A DNA stretch of 64,000 nt from Anaerolineae bacterium (GCA_016926255.1 JAFGOY010000002.1:1-64000); one strand, 5' to 3'. Positions 28,471-61,543 are shown, counted from the first letter of the stretch. The notes: a model not told the origin generated them from the sequence alone. Numbers and translations: made by a program.

Positions 28471-28558
28471 GGAGCGGTAGCATAGTCCGGCCTAATGCGC
28501 GCGCCTGGAGAGCGCGTGGGCGGTTTCCGCCCCGTGGGTTCGAATCCCACCCGCTCCG
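28471..28558 (+). tRNA. tRNA-Ser (GGA anticodon)
   Basis: 88-nt class II tRNA. Acceptor GGAGCGG pairs with CCGCTCC. The anticodon stem is CGCGC/GCGCG with loop CTGGAGA, anticodon GGA at 28507-28509. The long variable arm is GGGCGG-ttt-CCGCCC. The T arm is GTGGG-TTCGAAT-CCCAC. The discriminator is G and the following CC belongs to an encoded CC(T). Its 3' part is repeated downstream at 30951-31000 and partly at 29798-29812. Confidence 0.95.
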
Positions 28559-28579
28559 CCTGAATCAGAACGCCCGACA
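28530..28579 (+). repeat. 50-bp direct repeat, copy 1 (tRNA-Ser 3' end plus terminator left arm)
   Basis: Identical over 50 bases to 30951-31000. It spans the last variable-arm bases, T arm, acceptor 3' strand and the left arm of the terminator. A shorter divergent copy lies between at 29798-29838. Geometry is like attL/attR of an element that uses a tRNA 3' end. Confidence 0.85.
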
Positions 28580-28623: not shown

Positions 28624-29637
28624 CTACGGATTGTGCGAGAGGGCGCAGCGAAACCCGACTCTGTAGTACTCCAGGTCTGGTATAATCCAGTCACGGTAGG
28701 CCGCGCGAACGAAGTACGTTTCGAAGTACCAACCGCCTCCCCGCGCACTCCGGTATTCGCCACCATCCGGCCCCTGTGGGTTTGTGCCGGGCGACACGGC
28801 ATAGTAGCCAGAATCGTACCAGTCGTTGACCCACTCCCAGGCGTTGCCACTCAGGTCATAGGCCCCCACCCAGGATACACCGCCGGGGTACGATCCTACC
28901 GGCGCGGCGTACTCATACCCATCATCGATGCCTGTATCCGCCCAATCAACAAAGGGACAGTTTACATCACAGAAATTCAGTAACCCGCCGTTAAAATCAT
29001 TCCCCCAGGGAAAGGCCAACCCGTCCGGCCCGCGTGCAGCGTATTCCCATTCCGCCTCGGTTGGCAGGCGCGCCCCACGGCTTTCACAGTGCGCCTGTGC
29101 GTCAAACCAGGTAAGATTTTCGCGTGGCAGGTTGCCCGGTCCATATGTGGTCCATGAGCCATACTGTGCGTTGGACACCTCAAACACATCGATCCAGAAT
29201 GGCTCATCGAAGCACACTTCATGCCGGGGCAGTTCAGCCTCGAACCGTTCAAGCTGGCAATCGTCACGTGTTGCATTGCACAATGCAAAAGCGGCACTGA
29301 CTTCTTCCCCGGTGCTGCCCATCTGAAAGCATCCCGCAGGTACCAGCGCCATCGGCACGCCGTTCTTCTCCTCAATCACCGATGTCCAGTCGGCGTTGTG
29401 GGTTAACGGTGCAAAGCCAACCGGCAGCGGAGTTCCGGTTGGTGTCGGGGATGGGGTTGGCGTGGCGCTCGGCATCGGTGTGTCAGTTGCGGTGGCGGTC
29501 GGTGTATCCGTGGCCGTCTGCGTGGGGATGCCGGTTTCGGTGGACAAAGATGCCGCAGTTGGTTTCGTCTCCGGTGTACAGCCAACCACGATCAGCGAAC
29601 AAACCAATGCAATGATGATTGCTATGCGAGACTTCAT
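28624..29637 (-). CDS. FGE-sulfatase domain lipoprotein A
   Basis: 337 aa. Lipoprotein signal with lipobox IVVGC (Cys about 20), a Thr/Pro-rich linker to about 85, then an FGE-sulfatase domain: NGVPMALVPAGCFQMGSTGEE, EPFWIDVFEVSNAQYG, RLPTEAEWEYAARGPDG, WVGAYDLSGNAWEWVNDWY, SARGGGWYFETYFVRAAYRDW and GFRCALSHNP. The Cys pair of catalytic FGE is missing in the RGGGW region, so a surface binding role is inferred. It ends with the same 30 bases as paralogue B. It lies between tRNA-Ser-derived repeats. Confidence 0.88.
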   Translation of the reverse strand: MKSRIAIIIALVCSLIVVGCTPETKPTAASLSTETGIPTQTATDTPTATATDTPMPSATPTPSPTPTGTPLPVGFAPLTHNADWTSVIEEKNGVPMALVPAGCFQMGSTGEEVSAAFALCNATRDDCQLERFEAELPRHEVCFDEPFWIDVFEVSNAQYGSWTTYGPGNLPRENLTWFDAQAHCESRGARLPTEAEWEYAARGPDGLAFPWGNDFNGGLLNFCDVNCPFVDWADTGIDDGYEYAAPVGSYPGGVSWVGAYDLSGNAWEWVNDWYDSGYYAVSPGTNPQGPDGGEYRSARGGGWYFETYFVRAAYRDWIIPDLEYYRVGFRCALSHNP

Positions 29638-29797: not shown

Positions 29798-29841
29798 CGC
29801 TCCGCCTGAATCGGGACGCCCGGCGATCTGCCGGGCGTTTT
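29798..29841 (+). repeat. partial copy 2 of tRNA-Ser 3' end and terminator
   Basis: CGCTCCGCCTGAATC is identical to the tRNA acceptor end and its downstream bases. The same terminator layout follows with compensatory changes in the stem (ACGCCCGGC/GCCGGGCGT) and T-run. The T arm is degraded. It separates FGE genes A and B. Confidence 0.8.
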
Positions 29842-29868: not shown

Positions 29869-30822
29869 CTACGGATTGTGCGAGAGGGCGCAGCGAAAAC
29901 CAAGATTAAAGTTCGAGGAATCCGGATCATTCCAGCTGCGATTCGCACTGCGCATGTGGATCGAACTGTGGTTATCCCACGGCCCTCCCCGCATAACGTG
30001 ATCATCTCCTGTGTCAGGTCCCAGCGGGTTGATGACCCCATCTGCAAGCGTACCGTAGTATTCCTCGTCATACCAATCATTGACCCATTCCCAAACGTTG
30101 CCGCTCAGATCATTGGCTCCCACCCATGAAACCCCACCTGGCTTGCTGCCAACGGATGCTGTGCCTCCCGGATTGTTCTCACCATACACAGTATTGTCTG
30201 CAACAAATGTATTTCCCCACGGGTAAATGAGGTTGTCTGGCCCACGCGCCGCATATTCCCATTCCGCTTCGGTTGGTAGCCGTGCCCCACGATCTTCGCA
30301 GTGTGCTAAAGAATCATACCAGTTGATACAAATAGCTGGTTGGTTGCCGCTGAATGAATGACTGGTGCAATTTGAGGCGGCCCCTCCAACCTGCTTGTTC
30401 GTCATCTCATACACGTCAATCCAGAACGGCTCTTCAAAACACACTTCATGGACTGGCGATTCATCGCTATCTCCACCCTCGCTGCCCATCATGAAGCACC
30501 CGGCGGGTACCAGCGCCATCTCGACCCCGTTGATCTCCTCGATATATGGCTCCCAGTCATCGTTACGCGAGACACCGGCCAGTGCCAATGTAATCACCGC
30601 ATCAGGGATTTCCATGGTCGGCTCGTCAGTTGGCGTTTGAGTGGGCGGCTCCGGGGTAGCGGTAGCCGGTTTATCAGTGGCCGCAGCCGTTACCATCGTC
30701 GGTTGCTGCGTTGGGGGTGGTGTTGATGTGGCAGTCGGCACACTGACGATCCCCGCAGAGCAGCCCGCCAGCAGAGTCGCAGCGACAAGAATCCCTGATG
30801 GTAAACGACGATCAAATTTCAT
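29869..30822 (-). CDS. FGE-sulfatase domain lipoprotein B
   Basis: 317 aa from MKFDRRL; AAGGTG lies seven bases upstream and this gives a proper signal peptide with lipobox LLAGC. Thr/Pro linker to about 90, then the FGE-sulfatase domain: VEMALVPAGCFMMGSEGGDSDES, EPFWIDVYEMTN, RLPTEAEWEYAARGPDN, WVGANDLSGNVWEWVNDWY, VMRGGPWDNHSSIHMRSANRSW and GFRCALSHNP. No FGE catalytic Cys pair. Paralogue of the genes at 28624 and 35585. The short variable segment before GFRC differs strongly from A while the last 30 bases are identical. Confidence 0.88.
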   Translation of the reverse strand: MKFDRRLPSGILVAATLLAGCSAGIVSVPTATSTPPPTQQPTMVTAAATDKPATATPEPPTQTPTDEPTMEIPDAVITLALAGVSRNDDWEPYIEEINGVEMALVPAGCFMMGSEGGDSDESPVHEVCFEEPFWIDVYEMTNKQVGGAASNCTSHSFSGNQPAICINWYDSLAHCEDRGARLPTEAEWEYAARGPDNLIYPWGNTFVADNTVYGENNPGGTASVGSKPGGVSWVGANDLSGNVWEWVNDWYDEEYYGTLADGVINPLGPDTGDDHVMRGGPWDNHSSIHMRSANRSWNDPDSSNFNLGFRCALSHNP

Positions 30823-30950: not shown

Positions 30951-31018
30951 CCCCGTGGGTTCGAATCCCACCCGCTCCGCCTGAATCAGAACGCCCGACA
31001 TTCCTGTCGGGCGTTTTG
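30951..31018 (+). repeat. copy 3 of tRNA-Ser 3' end with terminator
   Basis: 30951-31000 is a 50-base perfect match to 28530-28579. The terminator stem ACGCCCGACA/TGTCGGGCGT (30991-31014, loop TTCC) differs only in the loop, and TTTTGTG follows. No 5' half of a tRNA precedes it, so this is not a functional tRNA. Confidence 0.85.
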
Positions 31019-31047
31019 TGTTTATCCGCGGATAAAGCTGTATTTGA

Positions 31048-43969: not shown

Positions 43970-44497
43970 ATGGCAGATGCTGCAAAGACAAATTGGCTCC
44001 GCAAACTTCGTATTCCCGCTGTCGTAGTAGCGATTTTTATGGTGGCTGCGCTTATTTGCTGTCGATCTTGCAGATCGTGGAATTGGACCCTTGCCCTTTC
44101 AGTACCGGACCCGCCTGATACCACTAAAACACATGTGAAAAGGTATGGTGGTTACCTAAGTGGTGTATTTATCTGGCATAAAGAGTATTGGATCGATGCG
44201 AGCCTGTATGAAGATGCTGAATCTGTACTACAATACTTCGATGTCTGGCTGCTTAACAATGGCTGGGTGCATACACCTAGCTACATGATAAGACCAGCTT
44301 CATGCACTACTCTGGCTGGTGTTCAACATGACGAAATGGAGAATACAATCTCAAGCAGGTATGTGTTAGAGGGTTGGTCAGCACCGGCCTCGCCAACGTT
44401 AACTTGCTTGGTGATAACAACTGAACCGGTTGAGCGAATTTATCATGTTCACCTGCTTACAACGAATCCAGATCCACTGTCAGGGCCCTTTGACTGA
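43970..44497 (+). CDS. hypothetical membrane-anchored/lipoprotein-like protein
   Basis: 175 aa from MADAAKT. Hydrophobic N-terminal segment (IPAVVVAIFMVAALICC) followed by CRSC, so either a lipoprotein or a single-TM anchor. No motif recognised; Tyr/Trp-rich exterior. Clearly AT-richer than neighbouring genes. Its stop lies directly at a truncated copy of the permease 3' end (44499-44577). Confidence 0.6.
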   Translation: MADAAKTNWLRKLRIPAVVVAIFMVAALICCRSCRSWNWTLALSVPDPPDTTKTHVKRYGGYLSGVFIWHKEYWIDASLYEDAESVLQYFDVWLLNNGWVHTPSYMIRPASCTTLAGVQHDEMENTISSRYVLEGWSAPASPTLTCLVITTEPVERIYHVHLLTTNPDPLSGPFD

Positions 44498-44498
44498 G

Positions 44499-44577
44499 GA
44501 GATAGATCAACAGAGTCAGCGGGGCACCGACCTTGATGAAATCGGAGAAGCGATACTGCCCCGGTTCGAACGGTGTG
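44499..44577 (-). pseudogene. fragment 1 of the SLC13-type permease 3' end
   Basis: Read on the minus strand it encodes PFEP-GQYRFSDFIKVGAPLTLLIYLL, matching the permease C-terminus at about 46700-46800. The ASLMVYG piece is deleted and the final codons are replaced. The conserved core of over 45 bases has very few changes. Confidence 0.85.
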
Positions 44578-44617
44578 CAGCATCTGCGGGTCGATACCAA
44601 CAAACTGGAAGGGAATT

Positions 44618-45295
44618 ATGGCCGGGAGAACGACATCAAAGATCGTGTTGGGCTTGCTCATCGCAGTTGTTATTGGAACGCTGCTGGCGGCCTGTCATTC
44701 GTCTGTGGCGTATGGCGATTTTGTAGATCAGAGTCTGATTACGGGCGATCCCTGCGAACCACCCTGCTGGTATGGCATCGAGCCGGGCATAGAAGAGAGT
44801 GAAGCATATGAGATATTGCAGGATATCTCTTTTGTCGATTCTGATACTATTGAATTTGTTACTCATGATTCTATCTATCATTGGCGATACTCTGAACCTT
44901 TTTCAGATAGTGGTGGAGCTCTTATCATTGAGAACGAGAAAGTTGTCTCTATTCACTACGGTTTACCTTGTGATCTAACTCTAGCTGAAGTCATCGAAAC
45001 ATATGATGTGCCATCTTGGTTACATATCAACATATACCGCCAATCTGGTGGACCTAAAGCTTTGGTCACAATAGCTTGGCCGAGAAATGGATTCCACGTG
45101 CAATTTTCGGAGAAAGTTGACCGTTACTCTACTGGCGCAGAGATTTATCCAGACACACTCATCGAATTAGTGACATATTTTGAACCCTATGACGGCAGTA
45201 TGGAGACTCTAGTTGAAGATGCTGGGGCTGATTGGGGGCAGTATGAGCAGTTCTACTATGAGTGGACAGGATATGGTCATATAGATTTCAAATGA
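44618..45295 (+). CDS. hypothetical lipoprotein
   Basis: 225 aa from MAGRTTS with GGAAGGGAATT upstream. Signal peptide with lipobox LLAAC. A C-P-x-x-P-C-W-like segment (GDPCEPPCWYGIEPG) and later NEKVVSIHYGLPCDLTLAEVIETYDVPSWL are seen, but no family is recognised. Strongly AT-richer than the flanking exchanger and permease genes, suggesting acquisition. Bounded on both sides by permease 3'-end fragments. Confidence 0.75.
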   Translation: MAGRTTSKIVLGLLIAVVIGTLLAACHSSVAYGDFVDQSLITGDPCEPPCWYGIEPGIEESEAYEILQDISFVDSDTIEFVTHDSIYHWRYSEPFSDSGGALIIENEKVVSIHYGLPCDLTLAEVIETYDVPSWLHINIYRQSGGPKALVTIAWPRNGFHVQFSEKVDRYSTGAEIYPDTLIELVTYFEPYDGSMETLVEDAGADWGQYEQFYYEWTGYGHIDFK

Positions 45296-45341
45296 CCATA
45301 TCAGGTTATAACTCAAAAGTGTGAAAATTAATCAATATACC

Positions 45342-45476
45342 CTACAGCGGCCACAGCACTGGGACGAGCACAATCGAGATCAGGTAGATCTGCAGGGTCA
45401 GCGGGGCACCGACCTTGATGAAATCGGAGAAGCGATACTGCCCCGGCCCGTAGACCATCAGGCTGGCCGGTTTGAG
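45342..45476 (-). pseudogene. fragment 2 of the SLC13-type permease 3' end
   Basis: 135 bases about 94% identical to 46665-46797, including the stop codon. On the minus strand it reads LKPASLMVYGPGQYRFSDF, then IKVGAPLTLQIYLISIVL, ending LWPL-stop. No start and no upstream part, so non-functional. Confidence 0.9.
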
Positions 45477-45506
45477 CAAAGCGATGCGACAGGAGCCAAC
45501 AACCAA

Positions 45507-46580
45507 ATGTATTTTCGTGATGTTTTTCGTCTCTCCATGGGGTTTATCCTGACAGTTGGACTTACATCATGCAAGATCGTGACAGAGAACCCACCATCAA
45601 TAACGGTCAGTAATGCTCTGCAATTGGAATCAATAGCTACGTTAAAAGGAAGACCGGAGAGTCAGGTTAATACAATAGCATTTAGCCCAGACAGCACTCT
45701 TTTGGCCGTTGGCAAAGGAGGTTATAACGATGCGTATACAGACAACAATGTTGTTGAGATATGGAATATTGAAAATCTCAACCTAATGACAGTACTGCCT
45801 GGGCATACCCTGCCAGTTACCGATGTCGAGTTCAGTCCTGATGGTACAGTCTTAGCCTCAGGAGCAGGATATCCAGATGGAGGGGCTAACAATGACACTG
45901 TACGGGTATGGAATCCCCAAACAGGAGTACAGTTGATTACACTCCCAGGCAATACGATGCCTTTCCAGAGTCTTGATTTTGAACCAGATGGAACTCATAT
46001 TGCGTATAATCAGGAAGAGGTAAGTCTTGGGAATATTCAAACAGGGGAAGTTGACATCAAGTTCGAAGTTGAGGGGTGGTATGCGGACAAGGTTGTCTTC
46101 AGTCCAGATGGCAACCTTCTGGCTGCCTCTATATATGATCGCCCCGGAGCAATTTCCACACAAATTTGGGAAGTAGAAACCTGTCAGCAAATGGCAACTC
46201 TTGAAACTCCTGGAGTATCAACCCTTGCATTCGGCCCTGAAAGTGATTTACTCGTAACAGCCAGCATAGACTACAAAGTCGGGAAAATACGCGTTCAATA
46301 CTGGAGCACAAGAACATTCACTGAAACTGCTCGTTTTGAACTGGATGGGAACTACGTACATCGTGTTTCATTCAGCCCAGATGGAGCAATACTCGCAGTT
46401 GTGGCCTCCGACGGATATCACGACCCAGGAAATTTGTATTTATGGAATAGCGTGACAAGGGAACGGTTGGCTACACTTGGGAATCAAGATATTAGAGTCA
46501 TGGCTTTCAGTCCAGACGGGATTGTGCTTGCCACTGGGCAAGTCGACGGTTCAGTACGACTCTGGGAAGTGTCCCCTTAG
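45507..46580 (+). CDS. WD40-repeat lipoprotein
   Basis: 357 aa from MYFRDVF with AGGAG eleven bases upstream; lipobox VGLTSC. A seven-bladed WD40-type propeller is likely: repeated FSPDSTLLAVGKG, FSPDGTVLASG, VRVWNPQTG, FSPDGNLLAAS, FSPDGAILAVVAS, LYLWNSVTRERLATL and FSPDGIVLATGQVDGSVRLWEV. Predicted to be displayed outside the membrane. AT-rich compared with its flanks. The previous gene is also a lipoprotein. A longer frame from 45321 would run through the permease fragment and is not credible. Confidence 0.82.
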   Translation: MYFRDVFRLSMGFILTVGLTSCKIVTENPPSITVSNALQLESIATLKGRPESQVNTIAFSPDSTLLAVGKGGYNDAYTDNNVVEIWNIENLNLMTVLPGHTLPVTDVEFSPDGTVLASGAGYPDGGANNDTVRVWNPQTGVQLITLPGNTMPFQSLDFEPDGTHIAYNQEEVSLGNIQTGEVDIKFEVEGWYADKVVFSPDGNLLAASIYDRPGAISTQIWEVETCQQMATLETPGVSTLAFGPESDLLVTASIDYKVGKIRVQYWSTRTFTETARFELDGNYVHRVSFSPDGAILAVVASDGYHDPGNLYLWNSVTRERLATLGNQDIRVMAFSPDGIVLATGQVDGSVRLWEVSP

Positions 46581-46661
46581 ATTTAGCAGATAAGGCAATC
46601 AATCTATATATCCTCGATATCACCATGCTGCTGACAATGACGCCTATCGAAACGACCTGGG

Positions 46662-48443
46662 CTACAGCGGCCACAGGATCGGGACGAGCACAATCGAGAT
46701 CAGGTAGATCAGCAGTGTCAGCGGGGCACCGACCTTGATAAAATCGGAGAAGCGATACTGTCCCGGCCCGTAGACCATCAGGCTGGCCGGTTCGAGCGGC
46801 GTGATGAACGAGCAGCTTGCCGCCAGCGCAATGATGATCGCAAAGCTGCGCGGGTTCAGCCCAAGCTGCGCCGCCGACTGGATCGCCACCGGGAAGACCA
46901 CCGCCGCCGACGCCTGGTTCGACATCGGCTGGGTGAGCAGCACGGTCAGTATGAAAAAGGCCGAGAGCAGCCAGATCGGGTGGGACGATCCAGACAGCGC
47001 CGCGATCTGCTCGGCGAGGAAGGCCGCCGTGCCGGTGCTCTCCATTGCTACCCCCAACCCCAGCATGCAGGCGATAACGATCAGCGCCGTCCACTGGACA
47101 TTCTTGTAAGCCTCCTCCGGCGTGATGCAGCGGGTGGTCATCGCCAGTGTTGCGCCGAGAAGCATCGCCACCGCAGGCGAGAGGATGTTGAAGGCCGAAA
47201 CGACCACCGCGCCCAGGAAGATCGCAATCGCCAGCGGCGCGCGTCGGCGGTTGGGTCGGCTGTGGGAGACGGTGCCCAGAAGCTGGAAGATGTTCTGCTG
47301 CTCAAGCGTGGCGATTTGCTGTCGATCCCCCTGCACCAGCAGGATGTCGCCGACCCGCAGGCGCACCTCACCCATTTTGCGGGTCAGGGTTTCACCACGC
47401 CGGTTGATCGCCAGCACCTGGAGATCATAGCGCTGGCGGACGTTGGCCCCTTTCAGCGTGCGGCGGAGCAGCGGCGACCCGGTCAGCAGGACGACTTCGC
47501 TCAGGCCCATGTCACCGCTTTCGAGGTTGGCCGATTCCAGGTCGACGTCCGGGCCGATGTCGATCCCGGAGTCGTCCTTGATGTCGAGGATGTCGGCCCG
47601 CCGCCCCTCGATCAGCAGGCGGTCGCCCTCTTCCAGCCGGGTCGAGGCGCGCGGTTGAAGGGGGGTGCGCCGACCATCGCGGATCACGCGCAGGACGTTC
47701 AGGTCCTGGTCGAGGCCCAGGCGGGATTCGAGGAGCGTCTTGCCGATCAGCGATGATCCACCCTTGAGGCGAATCTCGGTCAGGTAGATGCGGCTGCTGT
47801 ATTCCTCTTCGTCCGGCTCGACCGGGGCGCGGTCGGGCACCAGCCGCCGCCCGATGAATACCATGTAGAGCACGCTCACGATGGCAATCGGGATTCCGGC
47901 GGGCGTCAGCTCGAACATCCCAATCGGCAGCATGCCGGACTGGATCATCATACCGCTGACGACGATGTTGGTCGAGGTGCCGATCAGGGTCAGGGAGCTG
48001 GCGGCGATGGCCGCAAAGGAGAGCGGCATCAGCACCTTCGACGGGCTGAGTTTCGCCTGCCGTGCCAGCCCGGTCACGATGGGCAGCAGCAGCGCGGTCG
48101 AGGCAGTGTTGCTGATGAAGGCGCTGGTCACAGTTGCCACCGACATGATCACCAGTACCAGCCAGGTCGTCCCGTTGGAGCCTGTCCAGCGCTGCATCAG
48201 CACCCCGGCATATTCGGTGACGCCGGTATTGGTCATGGCCGCAGTGAGGATCAGCAGGCCAAAGACCATCACGAAGACTTCGCTGCCAAAGCCATGAAAG
48301 GCCATGTGCAACGGGAGCAGACCGGTCAGGATGAGGAAGAGCAGGATCAACAGCGCATTGATGTCGGCGGGAAGCCACTCGAATGAGAAGAGGATCACTG
48401 CCGCTGTCAGCGTAAAAAGCATCAGGATGATCTGGAAATCCAT
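46662..48443 (-). CDS. SLC13/DASS-type permease with two RCK_C (TrkA_C) domains
   Basis: 593 aa. Membrane halves flank a cytoplasmic insert: N-terminal helices with SAFISNTASTALLLPIVTGLA and LTLIGTSTNIVVSGMMI (substrate/Na+ motif), two TrkA_C domains (about 215-300 and 310-395: LIGKTLLESRLGLDQDLNVLRVIRDG; LLRRTLKGANVRQRYDLQVLAINRRG), then C-terminal helices with LTQPMSNQASAAVVFPVA. Probably an anion (sulfate or dicarboxylate) transporter. Its last 135 bases are duplicated twice upstream of its 3' end. Confidence 0.92.
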   Translation of the reverse strand: MDFQIILMLFTLTAAVILFSFEWLPADINALLILLFLILTGLLPLHMAFHGFGSEVFVMVFGLLILTAAMTNTGVTEYAGVLMQRWTGSNGTTWLVLVIMSVATVTSAFISNTASTALLLPIVTGLARQAKLSPSKVLMPLSFAAIAASSLTLIGTSTNIVVSGMMIQSGMLPIGMFELTPAGIPIAIVSVLYMVFIGRRLVPDRAPVEPDEEEYSSRIYLTEIRLKGGSSLIGKTLLESRLGLDQDLNVLRVIRDGRRTPLQPRASTRLEEGDRLLIEGRRADILDIKDDSGIDIGPDVDLESANLESGDMGLSEVVLLTGSPLLRRTLKGANVRQRYDLQVLAINRRGETLTRKMGEVRLRVGDILLVQGDRQQIATLEQQNIFQLLGTVSHSRPNRRRAPLAIAIFLGAVVVSAFNILSPAVAMLLGATLAMTTRCITPEEAYKNVQWTALIVIACMLGLGVAMESTGTAAFLAEQIAALSGSSHPIWLLSAFFILTVLLTQPMSNQASAAVVFPVAIQSAAQLGLNPRSFAIIIALAASCSFITPLEPASLMVYGPGQYRFSDFIKVGAPLTLLIYLISIVLVPILWPL

Positions 48444-53545: not shown

Positions 53546-54889
53546 ATGCTGAGACGGAGCTACCGGCAAAACGAGCCGCCCGATCTGCTCTTTGATGACC
53601 ACGAGGATCATATCTGGAGCCTCGTGAGTGCGGCGATGGCTGCCGCCGACCCGGCCAGGGCGCTCGAATCGAACTGGCCCTGGGTACTCTCCAAGGCGGA
53701 GCGGTTCTATATTGTCGGCGCGGGGAAAGCCGCGCTGGGGATGAGCCTGAAAGCGGAAGAACTGTGCGGCGACCGTCTGCTCGGCGGCGCGATTGCAGTT
53801 ATACCGGAGCGCCTGTCGCGGCTGCTTGAGAGCATCCAGGATCATGACCTGGCTTTCGAAGCGTTCCCGGTGGCCCACCCCTACCCCGACGAACGAAACG
53901 TGCGTGCAGCGGAAGCGATCGCTGACATGGCCCGCCGCGCCGGGGAAGGCGATCACCTGCTGGCGCTGATCTCAGGCGGTGGGTCGGCGATGCTGACGCT
54001 CCCAGCCGAAGGGTTGACACTCGACGACCTTGCGTCGATTACCAGGGCTTTGCAGCGGGCCGGTGCGCCGATCACACAGTTGAACATGGTGCGCAAACAC
54101 TGCGAGCAACTCAAAGGCGGCGGTCTGGCCCGGCTCGCCTACCCCGCCCAGGTCTGGGCGTTCATCCTCTCGGATGTAGTCGGCGACTCGCTGAACGTGA
54201 TCGCCTCCGGGCCGACTGCGCCCGATCCAACCACCTACCAGGACGCGCTCGACGTGCTGCACTATTATAACGTCGAGGAGGACGTCCCGAATGTCACCCG
54301 GCACCTGAGAGCAGGCGCGCGCGGTGAGGTGCCGGAAACGCTCAAGCCAAGCGACGAAGCGCTGGCACACGTCACCAACATGCTGATCGGCAGCAACCGG
54401 CTGGCGCTGGAAGCGGCCCGCAAGCACGCCATCGAGCACGGCTGGCGCGTGGTTGGGTTCGAGTTCGGGGTCGAGGGAGAGGCGCGGATCGCCGGGATGA
54501 ATCTGGCGCTCCGTTCACAGGACATCCTCCAACGGCCCGACCGCCCGGCGTGCTACCTGCTCGGCGGGGAGACGACGGTCACCGTACACGGCGACGGTCG
54601 GGGCGGTCGATGCCAGGAACTGGTATTGGCGGCGGCGATCCAGTTGGAGGGGATCGAGAATGTGGCAGTGGCCGCTTTTGCCACCGACGGGATCGACGGG
54701 CAGAGCGACGCTGCCGGGGCGTTCTGCACCGGCCAGACGGTTGCGCGTGGCCGGGAGATGGGACTCAACGCCGCCCGCTACCTGAACAATAACGACAGCT
54801 ATACTTTCTTCCAGCAGGTCGGCGGGCTGATCGAGCTTGGCCCGACCGGGACGAATGTCAACGATATTGCGATTGCGCTGGTATATTAG
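53546..54889 (+). CDS. glycerate 2-kinase (MOFRL family)
   Basis: 447 aa. GLYCTK/TtuD-type kinase: IVGAGKAALGMSLKAEEL, ALISGGGSAMLTLPAEGLTLDDL, SDVVGDSLNVIASGPTAPDPTTY, and C-terminal MOFRL domain with LLGGETTVTVHGDGRGGRCQELVLAAAI and TDGIDGQSDAAGAF. Phosphorylates glycerate to 2-phosphoglycerate. Its 3' end (QQVGGLIELGPTGTNVNDI) reappears as a diverged fragment at 61291-61374. Confidence 0.93.
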   Translation: MLRRSYRQNEPPDLLFDDHEDHIWSLVSAAMAAADPARALESNWPWVLSKAERFYIVGAGKAALGMSLKAEELCGDRLLGGAIAVIPERLSRLLESIQDHDLAFEAFPVAHPYPDERNVRAAEAIADMARRAGEGDHLLALISGGGSAMLTLPAEGLTLDDLASITRALQRAGAPITQLNMVRKHCEQLKGGGLARLAYPAQVWAFILSDVVGDSLNVIASGPTAPDPTTYQDALDVLHYYNVEEDVPNVTRHLRAGARGEVPETLKPSDEALAHVTNMLIGSNRLALEAARKHAIEHGWRVVGFEFGVEGEARIAGMNLALRSQDILQRPDRPACYLLGGETTVTVHGDGRGGRCQELVLAAAIQLEGIENVAVAAFATDGIDGQSDAAGAFCTGQTVARGREMGLNAARYLNNNDSYTFFQQVGGLIELGPTGTNVNDIAIALVY

Positions 54890-60665: not shown

Positions 60666-61283
60666 ATGCGCAGGATAGAAACTGTTGCCATCGGCCTGAT
60701 TTTCGGGGCGGTTCCGGTCATCACCTGTGGGCTGGCCGGGTGGTGGCTGATCATCCCCTACGTGCCGGAGCGGCTGATCTTCGTCGGGCTGCTGGCCGGT
60801 TTTGTCACGGGGATAGTGATCGACGTGCTGTTCCTCAAGCGATGGATTCGGCGGGCCTATTCGATGCGACCCATCGCCTGGAGCGGCATCTATCTCTTCT
60901 ATTCGGTCGGACTCTTTGGGATGTTCATGGGCGTCCCGATCTTCAACGTCGGGCTGGCCGTACCGGCAGGCTGCTTCGTCGGGGCATACCTGGCGAATCG
61001 AGAAGCTCCGCCGCCGGAGGTGAAGACCGCCGCCCGGCGATCCTCGCTGGTGACGACCGGCATCCTGGCGCTGATCTGCGGCGCATCGGCCACCGTAGCG
61101 CTGATCGATCCCTACACGGCTGGCAACCTGCAGGGGCTGCTCGGACTGCCCTTCCACGTCACACCTATGATGATTATCGGCCTGATCCTGATCGGGGGGA
61201 GCTTCCTGCTCGCGCTGCAATGGTGGATCACGAAGACATCGGTCGAGCTGACCTACCGCTACTTCGTGCGCCACGCGGGGTAG
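60666..61283 (+). CDS. multi-TM membrane protein
   Basis: 205 aa with about six helices (VAIGLIFGAVPVITCGLAGWWLIIPYV, LIFVGLLAGFVTGIVIDVLFL, IAWSGIYLFYSVGLFGMFMG and others). AAGAxNR-like ANREAPPPEVKTAARRS loop in the middle. No family recognised. Last gene of the cluster before the glycerate-kinase fragment. Confidence 0.75.
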   Translation: MRRIETVAIGLIFGAVPVITCGLAGWWLIIPYVPERLIFVGLLAGFVTGIVIDVLFLKRWIRRAYSMRPIAWSGIYLFYSVGLFGMFMGVPIFNVGLAVPAGCFVGAYLANREAPPPEVKTAARRSSLVTTGILALICGASATVALIDPYTAGNLQGLLGLPFHVTPMMIIGLILIGGSFLLALQWWITKTSVELTYRYFVRHAG

Positions 61284-61290
61284 CTAATCA

Positions 61291-61374
61291 TTCTTCAAGA
61301 AGGTCGGCGGGCGGATCGAGCCTGGGTCGACCAGAACGAATGTCAACGATATTGTGGTTGCGGCGGTGTATTGA
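61291..61374 (+). pseudogene. 3'-end fragment of a glycerate kinase
   Basis: 28 codons incl. stop: FFKKVGGRIEPGSTRTNVN followed by DIVVAAVY. It aligns end-to-end with the C-terminus of the glycerate kinase at 53546-54889 (FFQQVGGLIELGPTGTNVN...). The DNA identity is roughly 84% and continues past the stop into a degenerate site-1 hairpin (61376-61415). No start, so non-functional. Confidence 0.85.
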
Positions 61375-61543
61375 GTCTTCCCGAAATCCGCTGGGCGGAG
61401 GGCGGATACTCATTGATCGCCGCAGCGAATTCCGAGTATAATTTCAGTAGTTGGATAAGCATCAATCGAATCATTGTCCGGTCTGACCGGGTGACGAAAC
61501 CTCAAATCGCATTTGAGATTTCACTCATACCCTGGCACATAGA

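Follow-up and report, generated by a model that had tools for sequence, protein, structure and literature searches.

At the type VI secretion system (T6SS) loci of Vibrio cholerae, arrays of orphan immunity genes have been attributed to the same recombination model that is preferred below, an idea noted there for Rhs loci too (Kirchberger 2017, PMC5361080), and at contact-dependent inhibition (CDI) loci arrays of 3' fragments lie behind an intact gene (Poole 2011, PMC3150448). The present work concerns comparable arrays in an Anaerolineae bacterium, beginning with a 64,000-nucleotide stretch of its genome (GCA_016926255.1, JAFGOY010000002.1:1-64000; hereafter the window), in which the 3' end of an SLC13/CitMHS-type permease gene occurs twice more beyond the gene, with accessory genes in between. 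Across 1.375 Mb of the same genome, nine host genes have copies of their 3' end lying beyond them and not within a host gene, 14 in total; all of them are direct and none is a 5' end. We consider it somewhat more probable than not that these arrays are scars of sequential gene-end displacement, produced by homology-facilitated illegitimate recombination with DNA of related bacteria.

Outward from the permease and its present 3' end (R0; Table 1) come, in order, a WD40 lipoprotein gene, a first displaced end (R1), a second lipoprotein gene, a second displaced end (R2) and a third AT-rich gene. The match between R1 and the permease 3' end has an E value of 1e-53, and its edge falls exactly at the stop codon; the sequence-only reading had placed the last 135 bases of the permease, stop included, at 45342-45476 with about 94% identity, of which the repeat and the stop hold, the length being 136 nt, to 45477. 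It had also described a shorter copy with an internal deletion, and R2 bears this out: a block of 65 nt (44500-44564), 94% identical to R1 and 92% to the permease gene, differs from the latter by five synonymous and no nonsynonymous changes, and beyond it a 24-nt deletion between CCGG repeats is followed by about 13 homologous nt to 44577. Such repeats are far beyond chance. A whole-genome DNA search found no further full copy of the permease 3' end; a 24-nt exact match on contig C9 was rejected as a displaced end, since it falls within an unrelated gene that has an LMVYGPG motif as well. No permease 5' remnants were found by tblastn over 42.0-46.66 kb, where only residues 540-593 and 545-583 were matched.

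The three AT-rich genes at this locus are complete open reading frames (GC 0.45-0.47), all convergent with the permease, and their GC content at third codon positions (GC3) of 0.39-0.41 lies below that of every one of the 943 genes surveyed (mean 0.705, sd 0.076), which confirms the AT-richness noticed earlier for all three. The third gene had been said to abut the shorter copy, and indeed it ends 2 nt short of R2, while the displaced ends are separated from the starts of the inserted genes by gaps of 30-40 nt. The lipoprotein between R1 and R2 gave no Pfam, plasmid, phage or PHROG match, and its homologues are distant (25-38% identity) and scattered in the class, in 44/396 genomes; the third gene gave no Pfam or PHROG match.

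For the genome-wide pattern, direct and inverted repeats were scanned over contigs, or parts of contigs, C50, C23, C19, C9, C62, C15, C51, C40, C34, C39, C20 and C8 and placed on called genes, a script based on codon log-likelihood having been used for the calls in place of a standard caller; the names glycerate kinase, amylase, ahcY, FtsZ and FGE-type lipoproteins were read from the sequence and not taken from library scans. The copies are distributed as two each for the permease, tRNA-Ser and ftsA, three for an amylase-type gene, and one each for a glycerate kinase-type gene, the gene at C50:72735, a MacB-like permease, an MFS transporter and the gene at C40:40928. At each of the nine loci an intact host gene is followed by direct fragments of its own 3' end with other genes between them. 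Homology starts 35-142 nt before the stop codon and, in most cases, ends within about 20 nt of it. Four host genes were struck two or three times, giving 6 coincident pairs against about 0.09 expected. C50 carries five of the nine host genes; C23, C19, C9 and C62 carry none. Apparent 5' cases were discarded as tandem paralogues, among them those at C50:304 and C15:89598, or as a spurious antisense call. The assembly is metagenomic, with 82 contigs and 2.67% contamination, and the copies resemble alleles of relatives, so that chimaeras of co-existing strains had to be considered; nevertheless, no k-mer shared at the junctions between inserts and displaced ends was visible by eye, and the stacking of copies in twos and threes, the decayed state of some and an independent case in another genome make this the least credible of the explanations weighed here.

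The differences between the copies and their genes bear on how the copies arose. Each copy was aligned by codon with its own gene, giving 240 synonymous and 678 nonsynonymous sites, among which 65 synonymous and 49 nonsynonymous differences were counted (pS 0.27, pN 0.072, pN/pS 0.27). Neutral decay is rejected (p 4e-12), and so is a model of two equally long branches, one neutral and the other constrained (p 2e-4), with copies of one gene not being fully independent. A C-terminus or stop of their own is seen in several displaced ends, as in those of the MFS transporter (..MEDAAAAI*) and the C40 gene (..VKPES*), and the first ftsA copy retains its stop. Because divergence is mostly synonymous and several copies keep their own stops, both versions were functional alleles while they diverged and were joined by recombination; to judge from these alignments, gene and copy are mostly alleles that diverged in different genomes under coding constraint. 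Tandem duplication of a host gene and its neighbour, with later loss of the 5' parts, would agree with the two tRNA-Ser inserts, which are homologous lipoproteins. However, the genes between copies are unrelated at most sites, and full permease duplication with 5' parts and decay, which the sequence-only reading had itself named as the finding that would speak against its proposal, is contradicted by the lack of 5' remnants at the permease and by divergence too synonymous for decay, which leaves such an origin highly improbable.

Table 1. Host genes, displaced 3' ends and inserted genes (positions are those of the window unless a contig or locus is given).
Feature	Position	Strand	Basis or remark
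SLC13/CitMHS-type permease with two TrkA-C domains, host gene	46662-48443	minus	Pfam
Present permease 3' end, proximal repeat R0	46662-46797	minus	94% vs 45342-45477 over 136 nt
R1, displaced permease 3' end (copy 1)	45342-45477	minus	retains the stop codon; a single L to Q substitution
R2, displaced permease 3' end (copy 2), truncated	44500-44577	minus	24-nt internal deletion
Insert 1, AT-rich WD40-repeat lipoprotein gene	45507-46580	plus	Pfam WD40 5.6e-35; lipobox LTSC read from sequence; GC 0.458, GC3 0.388
Insert 2, AT-rich 225-aa lipoprotein gene	44618-45295	plus	lipobox LAAC read from sequence; GC3 0.407
AT-rich 175-aa gene beyond last displaced end	43970-44497	plus	N-terminal hydrophobic segment; GC3 0.409
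tRNA-Ser(gga), second host gene, anatomy like permease array	28471-28560	plus	ARAGORN
Lipoprotein with FGE-sulfatase-like sequence, tRNA insert	28624-29637	minus	open reading frame; family by eye
Displaced tRNA-Ser 3' tip and terminator	29798-29841	plus	87% over 44 nt
Second lipoprotein, same family as 28624-29637, tRNA insert	29869-30822	minus	open reading frame
Displaced tRNA-Ser 3' end and terminator	30951-31026	plus	92% over 77 nt; no mismatch in first 50 nt
Glycerate kinase-type gene, third host gene in window	53546-54889	plus	by eye
Displaced glycerate kinase-type 3' end behind 6.4 kb insert	61282-61393	plus	82% over 112 nt
Amylase-type gene with three displaced 3' ends	L022:10918-15690 (C50:94918-99690)
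ftsA with two displaced ends in 3' flank, no ftsZ after	L106:3868-5124 (C15:23868-25124)
ahcY array in genome G008	L173:1448-3830		hairpin downstream of ahcY copied too

Under the preferred reading, the incoming DNA would carry a relative's allele of the 3' part of the host gene with an accessory gene behind it. Its homologous end would pair with the resident gene and be exchanged by homologous recombination, and on the other side an illegitimate join would fall about 35-140 nt short of the resident gene's end. With one homologous and one illegitimate join, the host gene would therefore stay complete, with the accessory gene behind it and the old 3' end left downstream as a promoterless fragment; promoters predicted in the repeats are not above those in shuffles. 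Repetition would yield the order gene, first insert, first old end, second insert, second old end and former neighbour, in which the farthest fragment would be the oldest. Once an insert lies between direct repeats, ordinary RecA exchange might excise, move or stack units, which would account for repeated strikes on the same genes, variable flanks in the donors being an alternative source of this recurrence. The missing 5' ends may reflect selection, if 5' fragments bearing promoter and start were removed while 3' fragments were silent. The earlier proposal of repeated capture at the permease 3' end is thus supported; the idea that the end was rebuilt each time is better replaced by its exchange for a relative's allele, the old end being displaced.

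Several observations weigh against this reading. A symmetric process should yield 5' cases, and their lack (0/9) is not predicted by it; the inserts are compact complete genes and not random DNA; and every displaced end is short (35-142 nt). ComEC and DprA, encoded in the genome and counted in favour of this reading, permit DNA uptake without proving it, and are no proof of competence. Furthermore, pN/pS is high in the glycerate kinase copy, which is decayed (about 1), and in two amylase copies, as is expected only for old decayed ones; these near-neutral copies behave as old fragments should. Finally, no donor or empty-site genome was found among the relatives examined.

Most inserts are 0.6-1.5 kb long with one or two intact genes, and several are foreign in composition. 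Across sites the cargo consists mainly of toxin-antitoxin modules and lipoproteins. Behind the amylase-type gene are a BNR-type lipoprotein, a HicB-type antitoxin locus and a DUF5615 (PIN-like) module, together with a response regulator. A PIN toxin with its partner is present at both the MFS and the MacB-like genes, and an AT-rich lipoprotein at the C40 site. The cargo of ftsA is a zinc-ribbon gene and a gpmA-like histidine-phosphatase gene. C50:72735 has a methyltransferase and a polysaccharide-deacetylase-like gene, and there is, at the glycerate kinase-type gene, which has orthologues in seven relatives, a 6.4 kb block of oxidoreductase genes whose last stop codon lies at the junction. The convergence of inserts with their host had been claimed for the permease and the tRNA, where it holds, as it does at the MFS and C40 sites; at amylase and ftsA, however, orientations are mixed, and the inserts of the glycerate kinase-type gene and C50:72735 run in the host's direction, so it is no rule. 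It is possible, but rather unlikely, that an integrase-free cassette system is at work, in which single genes or toxin-antitoxin operons travel with a host 3' end, in circular or linear form, and the repeats serve as sockets for RecA or for some other recombinase. The exclusively 3' and direct displaced ends, the repeated strikes on the same genes, the compactness of the one-gene inserts, which include several toxin-antitoxin modules, the tRNA 3' end among the sites and a case in a second genus all speak for it. Nonetheless, there is no common motif, no recombinase was found with the units and no circular or mobile form was observed, and selection could produce the same bias. We are equally doubtful of its wider form, that the family uses gene 3' ends as sockets and places lipoprotein or toxin-antitoxin genes behind almost any gene, the arrays growing as in integrons but by RecA at the repeats instead of an integrase.

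Integrative elements typically insert at the 3' ends of genes and tRNAs, and the replacement ends carried on attP, as for icd of E. coli, are likewise synonymously divergent. Both points agree with the arrays being remnants of such elements, inserted by different tyrosine integrases at gene 3' ends with a replacement end in att, and since shrunk to single genes. Seven Phage_integrase matches were found genome-wide, on C23, C62, C6 and C48, but none on C50, C15, C51 or C40, the contigs with sites, and Gibbs sampling of repeats and junctions recovered no common attachment motif above random gene ends. This argues against one site-specific recombinase, and the analogy with integration at tRNA genes is therefore one of form only. 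With nine different targets lacking an integrase match on the same contigs, no shared core and inserts so small and intact, we regard integrative remnants as improbable.

A tenth case was found in a genome of another genus of the family (G008), where the 3' end of ahcY is displaced with a VapBC module between. As controls, the same scan was applied to two relatives belonging to different families of the order (G014 and G050, 200 kb from each) and to E. coli K-12 (300 kb), 0.7 Mb in all, and found no displaced ends. The density seen in the present genome would predict about 2.6 cases in the 400 kb of the order relatives, so their absence alone is a weak argument, and the frequency at family level rests on few data. 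Relatives of the permease were sought in 60 genomes and among GTDB contigs; the nearest are 54-57% identical, and the two inspected are neither syntenic nor duplicated. Within the family, the neighbourhoods of ftsA, glycerate kinase and amylase are variable, with no clean empty site; ftsA is followed by ftsZ, by nrdR and ribonucleotide reductase, or by other genes, and because its neighbourhoods differ in this way neither donor nor empty site can be demonstrated. The ftsA of the present genome has no ftsZ downstream, in contrast to most relatives.

Two further features of the scanned contigs are recorded here. Along C23:61407-101936 (L067-L069) a single frame, repetitive in sequence, stays open for 13,510 aa (about 40.5 kb) and probably encodes a giant surface protein. 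Repeats of about 50 nt that are interspersed between genes, and may be small mobile elements or resemble terminators, are direct on C51:13700-23270 (CCCTCCCCCT..AGGTGGAGGGAG) and of mixed orientation on C50:105400-160590.

If sequential displacement is correct, these arrays would be a readable fossil record of single accessory genes entering chromosomes without integrases or transposases, by a route that covers toxin-antitoxin modules, whose mobility is poorly explained. Each event would be marked by a displaced end, which suggests an order and preserves a sample of the earlier allele. A scan for displaced ends is applicable to any set of genomes, and would make frequency, 3' bias and cargo measurable.

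Among known systems, integron arrays and cis-mobilizable elements (CIMEs) also consist of tandem single-gene units with toxin-antitoxin cargo and direct repeats between them; here, however, the units come without attC sites, a shared att core or an integrase, and the repeats are coding ends of the host genes that differ from site to site. In the orphan cdiA-CT/cdiI and Rhs-CT modules (PMC3150448), as in our arrays, an intact copy of the upstream gene precedes a series of its 3' fragments, with a further gene behind each fragment, but their 3' ends are polymorphic toxins, whereas those described here are near-identical alleles of the resident end. Polymorphic toxins and effectors are not among the hosts, which are genes such as a permease, ftsA, a tRNA and an amylase. 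The model proposed for the T6SS arrays of V. cholerae (PMC5361080) has an upstream homology anchor, an illegitimate downstream join and older 3' genes pushed downstream into arrays; there the hosts are T6SS effectors and immunity genes are retained, while here housekeeping and tRNA genes are hosts to unrelated lipoprotein and toxin-antitoxin inserts, genome-wide. Similar in mechanism would be the homology-facilitated illegitimate recombination of Acinetobacter, Streptococcus and Pseudomonas stutzeri, in which foreign DNA is gained through one homologous and one illegitimate end, known there under laboratory selection and proposed here for a natural and recurrent pattern confined to gene 3' ends.

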